Positions 5,420-13,302 of a stretch of 42,935 nucleotides of DNA are shown piece after piece. Below the pieces are notes generated by a model. That model was not told where the DNA came from and did not search any database. It saw only the letters and a program-made list of their open reading frames with translations. Position 1 is the stretch's first letter, and each line of letters begins with the position of its first letter. Origin of the DNA: Mesorhizobium sp. (GTDB lineage Bacteria > Pseudomonadota > Alphaproteobacteria > Rhizobiales > Rhizobiaceae); contig SAQE01000054.1 of assembly GCA_004020545.1 (NCBI GenBank), positions 1 to 42,935 of the forward strand, written 5' to 3'. The translations under genes were made by a program, and so were the position numbers.

Positions 5420-7132
<1,713 letters not shown>

Positions 7133-7314
7133 CAGCGATTGCTCCCGAAAGTGAGGTTGCCGAAAATAAAGTTGCTCGAGTGCGGCGCGCACATTGTCGC
7201 CATCCAATGGTCACTGAATGACCCGCTCGGCGACACCTTCCGATCCCATTTGGCGGTTGAGGTGGCCGAGTCAGCCCAAAACGACCGTTTGCCAAACCGA
7301 TGGAAGGAATATCC

Positions 7315-7686
7315 ATGCGCAAGACGATACTTTTCGCGGCCGCTGCCAGCTTGGCGCTGGCGGGCGCCGCCAGCGCCCAGCAGCAGCCCACGCCTCAGCC
7401 CAGCCCAGCGCCGGCGACGCCGGCTCCCGCCACGCCTAAGGCCCCGACGATCGAGAGCGTCAACATCGTCGACATCACCGAACTGCCCAAGGACACACAA
7501 ACGCAGGTCAACCAGATCGTGGCGCAACGCGGCGACGCCGGCCTGCAGACATTGCGCAAATCGATCGACGCGACGCCCAAGGTGAAGTCCGCGCTCGAAG
7601 CCAAGGGAATAAGCTCGGCGCAGGTGATCGCGGCCAGCCTGCAGCCCAATGGCGCGCTGACCCTGATCACCAAGAAGGCAAGCTGA
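7315..7686 (+). CDS. Small exported Pro/Ala-rich hypothetical protein
   Basis: The protein has 123 residues. A clear signal peptide (MRKTILFAAAASLALAGAASA) ends in an ASA cleavage site near residue 21. A Gln/Pro/Ala/Thr-rich linker of about 25 residues follows, then a compact domain of about 75 residues without cysteines. No family was recognised. The start at 7315 follows a GGAAGGAA ribosome site; an in-frame ATG at 7300 is less likely. It is transcribed divergently from ureC and lies inside the urease locus. It and the next gene both encode exported proteins. Confidence 0.75.
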   Translation: MRKTILFAAAASLALAGAASAQQQPTPQPSPAPATPAPATPKAPTIESVNIVDITELPKDTQTQVNQIVAQRGDAGLQTLRKSIDATPKVKSALEAKGISSAQVIAASLQPNGALTLITKKAS

Positions 7687-7818: not shown

Positions 7819-8328
7819 ATGGCGGACACTGTGCGCACTAAAATCGCGATCCCTGCCAAGGCCGTAGCCGCGCTTCTGGTGGCCGCCGCCCCGCACGCGG
7901 CGTTCCCGGCGCAGCCTGTGGACGGCAAGCCGCCACTGGACAGCAACAAGCCGGGTGCGGCGATCGTCGATTCCGACATCCGGCAGGAAGAGGCGCTGTC
8001 GAAGACGGAGGCAGGCAAGGTCATCACCGCTATCGACCGCACGCGTGACAATATCGGCACGGTGCGCAAGACGACCAAGCTCGACACGGTCGACATCGTA
8101 TTTCTGACGGACGCCGCGCGCAGCGAGGGCGGACCACCGCCGGTGATCGAAGACAAGGTTGAGCAGCATAAGGACGACGTCGCGGAGTTGCGGCAGGAGA
8201 TTGAGGCGAACGCGCTGCTGTTCAACGCCATCGATTCGCGACGCCTGCTCGCGGAGGACGTGCTTGCCGTCGAATTCGACAACCCGGGCAAGATCGTCAT
8301 CTATGCGGCCGCCAAGCCTCCGAAGTGA
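7819..8328 (+). CDS. Exported hypothetical protein
   Basis: The protein has 169 residues. The N-terminus has basic residues followed by a hydrophobic stretch, AKAVAALLVAAAPHAAFPA, consistent with a signal peptide cut near residue 30. The mature part is rich in Asp, Glu, Lys and Val and has no cysteines or recognisable catalytic motif. It ends with a strand-like VLAVEFDNPGKIVIYAA. A GGAG ribosome site precedes the ATG. It follows the first small exported-protein gene after about 130 bases on the same strand, and both sit between ureB and ureC on the opposite strand. No function can be assigned. Confidence 0.7.
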   Translation: MADTVRTKIAIPAKAVAALLVAAAPHAAFPAQPVDGKPPLDSNKPGAAIVDSDIRQEEALSKTEAGKVITAIDRTRDNIGTVRKTTKLDTVDIVFLTDAARSEGGPPPVIEDKVEQHKDDVAELRQEIEANALLFNAIDSRRLLAEDVLAVEFDNPGKIVIYAAAKPPK

Positions 8329-9903: not shown

Positions 9904-10755
9904 TCAGAGTGACCATAATTTGGGCAGGCCCGCCCGTCCGTTGAGCAGTTCGACGAGCGGCACCAACCGTTTGCGGAGCTGGTAGCCGTCGCCGGCGGCG
10001 AGCCTCGCAAGAAGCTTGCCAGATTGCCCGACGCTCCAGAAGCTGGCGCCGCCCCAGCCACCGATGGTTGGGTCGTCGATAATGGCGCGCGCCGGCTCCA
10101 GCAGGGTTTCCGCACACGGTGATACGAGAAGCAGCGTTGCGATTGCGCGCGCGCCGCCGGCGACCGCCGGGCGCCGGAGCCTGGCTGCGATGTCCGGTCC
10201 GATACGGAAATCCTCGGCATGGATCAGCCTGCTGTCCTGGTGGACCCGCCAGCGGTCGTGGAAATTGCCGAGGACTGTCCGTTCGCCCATCGCCACTCGA
10301 CCGAACAATGTCGCCTCCAAAAGCAACGCCTCGGCATCCACGGCAAGCTTCACATCGAGCGTCCTGACAAAGGTCGCCCGATCGAAAACGATGGTTTCCT
10401 GCGGCAACCATGCGATCCGGCCGCCGGCGCCGACATCCAGGCTGACTGTCGTCTCGGCGCGATCGGATGCGGCGCGATAGATTTTCTCGCAGGCCTGGGT
10501 GGTGATGGAGGCCGAGGCGCCCTGACCGACCTCGATCTCCCAGCCAAGCCGGTCGCCGCCGGTCAAGCCGCCGGCCGTGTTGATCAGCACGGCCTCGAGC
10601 GGATCGCCTTGCACCGCCGGCATGCGAATCTTGGCCGATCCGTCCTGATAAAGACGCCGGAGCCGGGTCCGGCCGCCTGTTCTGCCGCAGAAAAGCCTGC
10701 CTCGCCCTGCAACACGTTGGGCGGCAGGCTGGGAGGCCAAGGTAGGGTCGATCAT
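9904..10755 (-). CDS. ureD: Urease accessory protein UreD
   Basis: UreD (UreH in some species) binds the urease apoprotein with UreF and UreG and is thought to carry nickel through an internal tunnel. From the ATG at 10755 it has 283 residues, near the family norm. The frame continues upstream to another ATG at 10818, giving 304 residues; neither start has a strong ribosome site. The family core is visible in GRGRLFCGRTGGRTRLRRLY, NTAGGLTGGDRL and LPQETIVFDRA. It is the first gene of the ureDA-DUF1272-ureJ-ureB run and is divergent from the NodF-like gene. Confidence 0.95.
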   Translation of the reverse strand: MIDPTLASQPAAQRVAGRGRLFCGRTGGRTRLRRLYQDGSAKIRMPAVQGDPLEAVLINTAGGLTGGDRLGWEIEVGQGASASITTQACEKIYRAASDRAETTVSLDVGAGGRIAWLPQETIVFDRATFVRTLDVKLAVDAEALLLEATLFGRVAMGERTVLGNFHDRWRVHQDSRLIHAEDFRIGPDIAARLRRPAVAGGARAIATLLLVSPCAETLLEPARAIIDDPTIGGWGGASFWSVGQSGKLLARLAAGDGYQLRKRLVPLVELLNGRAGLPKLWSL

Positions 10756-10805
10756 GTCCACGGCGCCAACGTTAAGCACTCCGGTGGCTTTGTCGATATA
10801 TAGCT

Positions 10806-10836
10806 TGTTGCTTGACATCGTTTCGGTTTCTATAGA
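10806..10836 (+). promoter_or_regulatory. Candidate promoter for the NodF/NodE-like pair
   Basis: A -10-like TATAGA (10831-10836) is preceded by TTGCTT (10809-10814) at 16 bases, in the divergent ureD/acp gap. This is a weak match read by eye. A nod-box-like sequence was looked for in 10756-10956 and not found. Confidence 0.25.
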
Positions 10837-10956
10837 GGGAGCCACCTTGGAGCGGTCACGCGATGCCTGGAGAGGCAAGGGCCACGGCGTTCGCGAATCC
10901 GGGAATGAAGGGGCGCTGATCAGTTGGCGTCGGAAAACGACAGGGGAAGGAACCGA

Positions 10957-11211
10957 ATGGCTGACCAGCTGACGACCGAAATCATCGAGAAGATCAAGGC
11001 TCATGCCGAGACTGGCGGCGAGGAAATCACCACCAGCACGGATCTCAACACGCTTGGCATTCATTCGCTGGAGCTCACCGAGATCATCTTCGACCTCGAG
11101 GAGAAGTACGGCATCGAGATCGAGATGAACACGGTCGACGCCTGGAGCAACCTCAAGAACGTCGGCGACATGGTCGAGGCGGTTCGCGAACTGATCGCGA
11201 AAAAAGCCTGA
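10957..11211 (+). CDS. NodF-like acyl carrier protein
   Basis: This 84-residue acyl carrier protein would carry the acyl chain on a 4'-phosphopantetheine arm attached to Ser37 ([10 protein letters not shown]). In most ACPs the residue before that Ser is Asp; here it is His36. The second half, [19 protein letters not shown], closely resembles the NodF proteins of rhizobia as I remember them. NodF is about 92 residues, so this one is slightly shorter in the first helix region. The start follows a good GGGGAAGGA site. The partner ketosynthase starts 4 bases after the stop. No nod box is visible, so NodD control is unlikely. The acyl product is unknown. Confidence 0.88.
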
Positions 11212-11215
11212 TTGC

Positions 11216-12424
11216 ATGCTGAAACGCGTCGTCATCACCGGCATTGGCGGGATATGCGGGCTCGGCAACGATGTGGCCGCGATCTGGGACGCAATGCGCG
11301 CCGGCCGCTCGGCAATCGGCCCGATCGACAATCCGTCGCTGCATGACCTGAAGGTCAAGGTCGGCTGCGAGATCAAGGAGTTGCCCGATCACGGCATCGA
11401 CCGCAAGCAGGTGGTGTCGATGGACCGTTTCAGCCTCCTGGCGGTGATTGCCGCACGGGAAGCGATGCGGCAGTCCGGACTGGTCGCCCATGCCGACAAC
11501 ACCTACAGGATGGGCGCCGTCGTCGGCATCGGCGTCGCCGGCTTCGAAACGATCGAGGAAAACTACCGCGCGATCCTGATCGAGGGGCGCAACCGCGCCG
11601 CCATCTTCACCGTGCCGAAGGTGATGCCGGGTGCGGCCGCCGGCCAGGTGAGCATGAATCTAGGCCTGCGCGGGCCGGTATTCGGGGTCACCTCCGCCTG
11701 CTCCTCGGCCAATCATGCCATTGCCAGCGCCGTCGACCAGATCCGGCTCGGCCGCGCCGACGTCATGGTCGCCGGCGGCACCGAAGCGCCGCTGGTATGG
11801 GGCGTGCTCAAGGGCTGGGAAGCGCTGAGGGTGCTTTCGCCCGATACCTGCAGGCCGTTCTCGGCCGATCGCCAGGGCCTGTCGCTCGGCGAAGGCGCCG
11901 GCATGGCGGTGCTGGAGAGCTACGATCACGCCGTGGCGCGCGGCGCCACCATCCTTGCCGAGATCGCCGGCGTGGGCCTCTCGGCCGACGCCTCCGACAT
12001 CGTCGCGCCGACGATCGAGGGCCCGGAAGCGGCGATGCGCTTCTGCCTGGTGGATGCCGGGCTCAATCCCGAGGATGTCGACTATCTCAACGCGCATGGC
12101 ACCGGCACCAAGGCCAACGACCAGATCGAGACGGCGGCGATCAAGCGCGTCTTCGGCGAGCATGCGCGTGCACTCTCGGTGTCCTCGACCAAGTCGATGC
12201 ACGCGCATTGCCTCGGCGCGTCGGGCGGGCTGGAGCTGATCGCCTGCGTCATGGCGATCCGCAATGGCATCGTGCCGCCGACGGCGAATTTCCGTGAGCC
12301 CGACCCCGAATGCGATCTCGACGTGACGCCTAATGTGGCGCGCGAACGCAAGGTGCGCGTAGCCCTCAGCAACAGTTTTGCCTTCGGCGGCACCAATGCG
12401 GTGCTGGGCTTCAAGGCGATCTGA
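11216..12424 (+). CDS. NodE-like beta-ketoacyl-ACP synthase
   Basis: This condensing enzyme elongates an acyl chain on an ACP with malonyl-ACP as donor. The 402 residues equal the length of NodE as I remember it. The catalytic Cys162 lies in [18 protein letters not shown], His294 in [15 protein letters not shown], and Lys326 and His331 in [13 protein letters not shown]. The C-terminus has the [10 protein letters not shown] signature. Segments such as [18 protein letters not shown] and [19 protein letters not shown] resemble NodE more than housekeeping FabF (inference from memory). It is paired with the NodF-like ACP 4 bases upstream, as nodF and nodE are in symbiosis regions. No other nod genes are in the window. 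A housekeeping or envelope-lipid role is equally possible. Confidence 0.9.
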
Positions 12425-12597: not shown

Positions 12598-13302
12598 ATG
12601 ACCGACCTGTCCGCCTTTCCCATCACCAAGCGCTGGCCGGCCAAAAAACCAGACCTCCTGCAGCTCTACTCCTCCACGACGCCCAACGGGGTGAAGATCT
12701 CGATCGCACTGGAGGAGATCGGCCTGCCCTACGAGCCGCACTATGTCGACATCGGCAAGAATGAGAGCTGGACCCCGGAATTCCTGTCGCTCAACCCGAA
12801 CGGCAAGATACCGGCGATCATCGACCCGAACGGGCCCGACGGAAAGCCGATCGGGCTGTTCGAATCCGGCGCTATCCTGCTCTATCTCAGCGACAAGACC
12901 GGCAAGCTCATCCCGGCCGATCCCATCCGCCGCTACGAGACGATCCAGTGGGTGTTCTTCCAGATGGCCGCGATCGGCCCGATCTTCGGGCAGGTCGGCT
13001 TCTTCAACAAGTTCGCCGGGCGCGAGATCGCCGACAAGCGGCCGCTGGAACGCTATCGCGACGAGTCGCGGCGGCTGATCGGCGTTTTGGAAACGCGGCT
13101 CAAGGGCCGGCAATGGATCATGGATGACGAATACACCATCGCCGATGTCTCGATGCTTGGCTGGGTGCGCAACCTGATCGGCTTCTACGAAGCGCGCGAC
13201 CTCGTCGGCTTCGACGATTTTCCGACCGTCGCGGCATGGCTGGAGCGAGGCCTTGCACGGCCGGCCGTGCAGAGGGGCTTGACCATCCCGGCAAGGGGTT
13301 GA
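12598..13302 (+). CDS. Glutathione S-transferase, YghU/YfcG type
   Basis: The 234 residues start MTDLSAFPITKRWP; a longer frame from 12544 has no support. The N-terminal domain shows LYSSTTPNGVKISIALEE, where Thr and Asn take the place of a catalytic Tyr/Ser/Cys. That is typical of Nu-class enzymes such as E. coli YfcG and YghU, which reduce disulfides with glutathione. It also has NPNGKIPAIIDP and LFESGAILLYLSDKTG. The C-terminal helical domain contains EYTIADVSMLGWV. It is likely cytosolic and involved in thiol redox balance. It stands alone after the ketosynthase gene, with 173 bases between that hold nothing recognisable. Confidence 0.92.
   Translation: MTDLSAFPITKRWPAKKPDLLQLYSSTTPNGVKISIALEEIGLPYEPHYVDIGKNESWTPEFLSLNPNGKIPAIIDPNGPDGKPIGLFESGAILLYLSDKTGKLIPADPIRRYETIQWVFFQMAAIGPIFGQVGFFNKFAGREIADKRPLERYRDESRRLIGVLETRLKGRQWIMDDEYTIADVSMLGWVRNLIGFYEARDLVGFDDFPTVAAWLERGLARPAVQRGLTIPARG

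Follow-up and report, generated by a model that had tools for sequence, protein, structure and literature searches.

NodF and NodE shape the acyl chain of the Nod factor and are determinants of host range. In biochemical terms the ketosynthase extends chains on its own acyl carrier protein (ACP), the other enzymes of fatty acid synthesis are shared, and an unusual acyl chain is made. For nodE, the accessible part of PMC5702008 is in agreement with the role in host range. Chromosomal homologues of nodFE are present in M. loti MAFF303099 and in island-free Mesorhizobium (see the available portions of PMC4070662 and PMC6331556), and in the latter paper those of the island-free strains are described as apparent duplicates of NodE, NodF and NodG on the chromosome. 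These portions report the presence of the homologues and do not trace their ancestry. The printed homologues, those of MAFF303099 as well as those of the island-free strains, very probably represent the same type of locus as the pair described here. Among the matches listed in a literature search we recognised no account of nodFE ancestry or of repeated capture. The existence of the chromosomal locus is already known, whereas its ancestry, the polarity from HSL to DSL and a second recruitment were not found in the literature matches listed.

The window, i.e. the whole stretch of 42,935 nucleotides that was analysed, corresponds to contig C138 in a genome of 7.0 Mb. It contains a gene for a specialised ACP of 84 aa (10957..11211, forward strand, ATG at 10957; ORF, Pfam, solved-structure match and alignment) that is followed after 4 bp, on the same strand, by a gene for a NodE-like beta-ketoacyl-ACP synthase (KS) of 402 aa (11216..12424, forward strand, ATG at 11216; ORF, Pfam, profile models, tree and alignment). 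The Pfam matches are PP-binding (1.2e-9) for the ACP and ketoacyl-synt (6.6e-52) for the KS, and the top solved-structure match of the ACP is 1fh1, a chain that was deposited under the name nodulation protein F (2e-23). The ACP is NodF-like, with an HSL motif that contains Ser37 and without the loop insert of NodF, and in the alignment Cys162, His294 and His331 of the KS occupy the usual motifs. Both ORFs beside ureD, HSL with Ser37, the 402 residues and the three catalytic residues had been proposed in the sequence-only reading of this DNA and were found again. Upstream lies ureD, which encodes a urease accessory protein of 304 aa (9904..10818, reverse strand, start at 10818); it is divergent from the pair, adjoins the other urease genes and was not judged a functional part. 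The region between ureD and the ACP gene (10819..10956) has no nod box and a Shine-Dalgarno-like AGGGGAAGG before the ACP start. A glutathione S-transferase (GST)-like gene (12598..13302, forward strand) is the downstream neighbour that is kept most often. Compared with other Mesorhizobium loci, dN/dS is 0.075-0.24 for the KS (10 pairs) and 0-0.107 for the ACP (9 pairs, one having been dropped for length), which points to purifying selection on both genes.

NodF and NodE resemble the window pair in gene order, in sequence (47-61% identity for the ACP, about 71-80% for the KS) and in their catalytic residues, which are alike in the aligned rows. Canonical NodF has an Asp before the serine, measures 88-94 aa and usually lies behind a nod box, whereas the window ACP has 84 aa, HSL, no nod box and no longer first loop, and has orthologues in genomes that lack nodA. 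As the residue before the serine, His was found in all 80 titled loci (80 of 121 relatives), in 21 of 21 further Mesorhizobium loci and in 11 of 11 loci of neighbouring genera; these 112 chromosomal ACPs come from Mesorhizobium and two neighbouring genera, with a few of the genomes sampled twice. Asp was found in all 22 canonical NodF sequences (three of them identical). Elsewhere the residue varies: among 32 other chromosomal loci it is His in 24 and otherwise Asn, Gln, Thr, Ser or, in L164 and L186, Asp, and in symbiotic loci other than the canonical ones it is His (both loci of the third group described below) or His or Gln (all eight of the Sinorhizobium type). The ACP has a length of 88-94 aa in canonical NodF, 84-85 in the chromosomal loci of Mesorhizobium and the neighbouring genera and 82-83 in the other symbiotic groups. 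By eye, the extra residues of canonical NodF are situated in the first loop, and those of some other-genus ACPs, which reach 95 aa, at the ends. As judged from the residues, HSL is the older state within the Mesorhizobium clade, and the DSL and the loop insert of NodF are derived. The change of DSL to HSL assumed in the sequence-only reading therefore has to be reversed in this clade, and a mutation in that direction was rejected on the counts (His in 112 of 112 chromosomal ACPs, Asp in 22 of 22 canonical NodF).

The window pair belongs to the core of Mesorhizobium and is independent of nodA, where near-universality applies to the ACP. With the window ACP as query, an orthologue-grade match (every best E at or below 1.9e-36; the best NodF-grade E among the matches listed was 1.3e-25) was obtained in 145 of 146 Mesorhizobium genomes, the sole exception being a genome that is 79% complete. 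As nodA is present in 101 of the 146, the ACP is carried by 44 of the 45 genomes without it. The genus count concerns the ACP only; adjacency of the KS was followed in the titled loci (80 of 121 relatives kept, 77 of the 80 titled Mesorhizobium; L045, L101 and L113 are named chromosomes), where it succeeds the ACP in 80 of 80, and in the further Mesorhizobium loci, where it is present in 17 of 18 and the contig of the remaining one (L258) ends at the ACP. In the family sample, with NodF counted in, an ACP match occurs in 118 of 394 genomes and 39 of 109 genera; nodA is matched in only 15 of these 118 genomes (in one case partially) and in 103 not at all.

The relation to canonical NodE was addressed with four trees. 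In a tree of 94 KS sequences (LG+C20), in which the symbiotic row L189 was entered among the ordinary rows of other genera, the 20 rows that bore the label NodE all fell together with the 16 chromosomal Mesorhizobium rows (98/97). The same union of chromosomal Mesorhizobium and canonical NodE was recovered in a second tree of 94 KS sequences with more chromosomal rows (LG+G4; 99/99), in a DNA tree of codon positions 1 and 2 (99/97) and in a tree of concatenated ACP and KS from a short search (SH-aLRT 98); L289, where no KS is annotated beside the ACP, was omitted. The adjacent outer branches are formed by chromosomal copies from neighbouring genera. Canonical NodE is thus inside or beside the Mesorhizobium chromosomal clade in all four trees, and this clade groups with it to the exclusion of other genera, although the AU tests, whose groups were chosen after inspection of a first tree, are mixed. 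Placing NodE outside Mesorhizobium and the neighbouring genera gave p=0.019 for the KS and 0.225 for the concatenated data, and placing it outside the whole chromosomal family gave 0.027 and 0.134, respectively. Mesorhizobium alone as a clade was not rejected (p=0.2), and NodE may therefore be sister to the genus and not inside it.

These values bear directly on the strongest alternative, namely that a third, unsampled source gave rise to both canonical NodFE and the chromosomal pair, which would then be sister lineages with neither ancestral to the other. The two concatenated AU results are compatible with such a history; the KS results, together with several nested nodes at 98-100 in protein and DNA trees, speak against it, and we consider it unlikely, if still deserving of some weight. 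The direction from chromosome to symbiosis is suggested by the synteny of the chromosomal copies across genera, which would not be expected from a late insertion out of a symbiosis island. The chromosomal ancestor that had been put forward from the sequence alone is accordingly favoured by synteny, genus-core status, independence of nodA and the position of NodE in or beside the clade, even though not every AU test demands nesting.

Promoters were compared with a nod-box consensus of 47 bases, 39 of which are informative. In the 700 bp upstream of the window pair the best score was 20 of 39; for comparison, 300 shuffles gave a mean of 19.9 and a maximum of 24. Over the whole window, both strands, the best score was 24; five other chromosomal loci scored 18-22 within 700 bp. 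The earlier impression that no nod box is visible at the pair is thus confirmed by a score within the range of the shuffles. A nod box scoring at least 30 was found within 1500 bp upstream of the ACP neither in the window nor in two chromosomal loci, whereas one of 30-38 was present over the same distance in 28 of 30 symbiotic loci, covering all three symbiotic groups (L195 has two ACP/KS pairs and a nod box for each; in L226 and L228 none of 30 or more occurs within 1500 bp). Moreover, the window has no NodA match, and the pair lies in a urease neighbourhood and not in a nod region. These results weigh on the proposal that the chromosomal pair still supplies unusual acyl chains to the Nod factors of strains that bear nod genes. 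Its close homology to NodFE, the repeated recruitment of such pairs and the lack of nodFE in some Mesorhizobium islands (according to the available part of PMC7643969) would fit that role. However, the pair has no nod box, a homologue that lacks a nod box might escape induction (as suggested in the accessible text of PMC4070662), and it is kept in genomes that lack nodA, so that we regard a continuing supply to Nod factors as improbable.

The strain itself is symbiotic, as contig C166 of the same genome carries nodA, nodF and nodE. The statement that the pair lies outside any nod cluster consequently holds for the window contig, but not for the genome. It had also been stated in advance that nod genes elsewhere in the strain could reduce the pair to a copy of the symbiotic one; such genes do exist, yet the window pair is not their duplicate. 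A stray duplicate of the symbiotic nodFE integrated beside ureD would agree with the occurrence of nodF and nodE on C166 and with the wording 'apparent duplicates' in the available part of PMC6331556, but it is very hard to reconcile with an identity to the strain's own symbiotic copy of just 61% for the ACP (55% with the insert counted) and 73% for the KS, with the synteny in 79 of 80 titled loci (80 of 121 relatives), with the ACP in 44 of 45 nodA-less Mesorhizobium genomes, and with the KS tree, where the C166 NodE groups with plasmid and island NodE and the window KS with chromosomal Mesorhizobium.

FabF and AcpP of the type II fatty acid synthase have the family, the mechanism class and the catalytic Cys-His-His in common with the window pair. 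Other KS of the genome are encoded on C66, C119, C166, C188 and C122, and other ACP matches occur on C166 and, weakly, on C66 and C122; the one on C66 (E 0.0026) is located just ahead of the separate KS of that contig. That the window pair is itself the housekeeping AcpP/FabF is just as hard to maintain: the KS does exceed the cut-off of the broad NF005589 model (441.6 versus 387), but it stays below that of the fabF equivalog model (456.3 versus 493.75), the ACP stays far below that of the acyl_carrier model (28.4 versus 70.45), the window KS is only 42% identical to the C66 KS with its own weak ACP match, and four other KS of the genome fall outside the family in the LG+C20 tree.

A different set of ACP/KS pairs adjoins nodABC on plasmids of S. 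fredii GR64, S. americanum, S. mexicanum and S. terangae; the nodABC-linked S. americanum-type pair with its nod box is represented by L282-L285, around 6001-7473. Relatives of this type are found on plasmids of Rhizobium sp. CC1099, R. etli bv. mimosae IE4771 and Rhizobium sp. NXC14, where nodABC is not adjacent within 12 kb. The S. americanum-type pair is like the chromosomal type in its ACP, which measures 83 aa and has an HSL or QSL motif, and differs from the window pair in its nod box, its location on nod-gene plasmids and its descent from a different chromosomal lineage. The eight Sinorhizobium-type rows (L189 included) form one KS clade (100/100) that is nested in another chromosomal clade (99/98 for KS protein, 100/96 for DNA). 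Uniting them with canonical NodE was rejected by the AU test (p=6e-9 for the KS, 0.007 for the concatenated data), and recruitment therefore apparently took place at least twice; uniting all symbiotic rows was rejected with the concatenated data (p=0.025). A third group consists of L194 and L197, from two Mesorhizobium genomes, with HSL, an ACP of 82 aa and a nod box. With p=0.256 in the KS AU test and a position in the concatenated tree that adjoins canonical NodFE (SH-aLRT 94), this group may either belong with canonical NodFE or stand apart from it.

The nod boxes themselves offer a clue to how capture may have proceeded. A broken piece of nodA lies between the nod box and nodF in L191 (the strain's own locus, G000:C166, about 150-340 bp upstream of nodF), L192, both pairs of L195 and L276-L278; a whole nodA occupies this place in L193, L196 and L230, and in others there is none. 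The broken nodA behind a nod box suggests promoter capture, nodFE apparently having been inserted behind a duplicated nodA promoter. We think it quite likely that nodF and nodE originated more than once: a widespread chromosomal pair, of hosts without nodA, would have been put under nod boxes at least twice, a Mesorhizobium lineage leading to canonical NodFE and another to the S. americanum type, in some cases apparently via a broken nodA copy that provided the nod box.

The genomic context of the pair is conserved to a varying degree. The neighbours that recur are ureD, the GST-like gene and a PRK-type kinase-like gene. Among the titled loci (80 of 121 relatives), the pair is enclosed between ureD and GST in 79 of 80. 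The same arrangement occurs in 11 of the 34 loci from other genera, in 7 of 9 additional neighbouring-genus loci and in 4 of 18 additional Mesorhizobium loci; several of these 18 span only 3-7.5 kb, and for one of them the contig stops at the ACP. The 34 loci from other genera are what remains of 40 without L153, where no KS was found, and the symbiotic L163, L175, L184, L189 and L190. Taken singly, ureD adjoins the pair in 79 of 80 titled, 15 of 34 other-genus and 4 of 18 further Mesorhizobium loci, and the GST-like gene follows it in 80 of 80, 17 of 34 and 17 of 18, respectively, as well as in 9 of 9 further neighbouring-genus loci. Eight of the 34 other-genus loci have none of the four neighbours sought, and in five, from five genera (L151, L154, L164, L167 and L180), the pair is situated between leuD and leuB; an asd-like gene lies downstream in these five. 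Deeper relatives of the pair, with a KS about 44-52% identical, are found in 17 loci from other families of the order (L234-L250), where, with names assigned by reading the sequences, a ligase-like gene is divergent in 13 and FadB- and FadA-like genes are near in 8; a MerR-like gene is likewise near in 8 of the 17. Because no neighbour is constant across loci, none was accepted as a functional partner and no pathway was drawn from them. Urease was rejected as a functional link, ureD being non-adjacent in 14 of 18 further Mesorhizobium loci; given its uneven presence across the locus sets, the association is one of synteny and not a functional clue, and the urease neighbourhood looks incidental.

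Two further observations concern single genes. A secreted-looking protein of 169 aa without a Pfam match is encoded at 7819-8328 of the window; its cluster occurs near the ACP-KS pair in 24 of 52 compared loci, and in several loci where urease is not adjacent a member of the cluster immediately precedes the ACP. In an 8.8 Mb genome of another family (L231, G697:C123), a NodF-like ORF has QSP in place of the serine motif and the surrounding 19.9 kb contain no KS match; this ORF is probably a decayed copy.

For the window pair, the homology, the catalytic residues, the purifying selection, the nearly genus-wide ACP, the presence without nodA, the lack of a nod box and the position of NodE in the trees can be set beside a proposed function. 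It is likely, in our judgement, that the pair is a vertically inherited, non-symbiotic, dedicated ACP and FabF-class KS that makes a lipid acyl chain and that was the source of the symbiotic nodFE. AcpS would load phosphopantetheine onto Ser37, the KS would condense malonyl units onto acyl chains held by its own ACP, and the common FabG, FabZ and FabI enzymes would complete, or partly complete, each cycle. The resulting unusual acyl chain would be destined for a cell-envelope lipid. Since NodFE-dependent fatty acids in phospholipids are mentioned, from cited work, in the available part of PMC4070662, an envelope lipid is a reasonable native destination. The second, unstudied lipid pathway that had been raised as an option from the sequence is plausible. 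Copies of the pair moved behind nod boxes would then have provided an acyl chain that NodA could use, and this would be the origin of the symbiotic nodFE. In a first recruitment, a Mesorhizobium-like chromosome would have given rise to canonical NodFE, which subsequently acquired DSL and an insertion of about 8 residues in a loop; in a second, another lineage would have given rise to the pair linked to nodABC in Sinorhizobium americanum and its relatives.

For the interpretation of genomes this calls for caution, as annotations of nodE and nodF in island-free Mesorhizobium strains may simply refer to the chromosomal ACP-KS locus. Moreover, with living non-symbiotic relatives of nodFE in genomes that lack nodA, the origin of a determinant of host range becomes testable.
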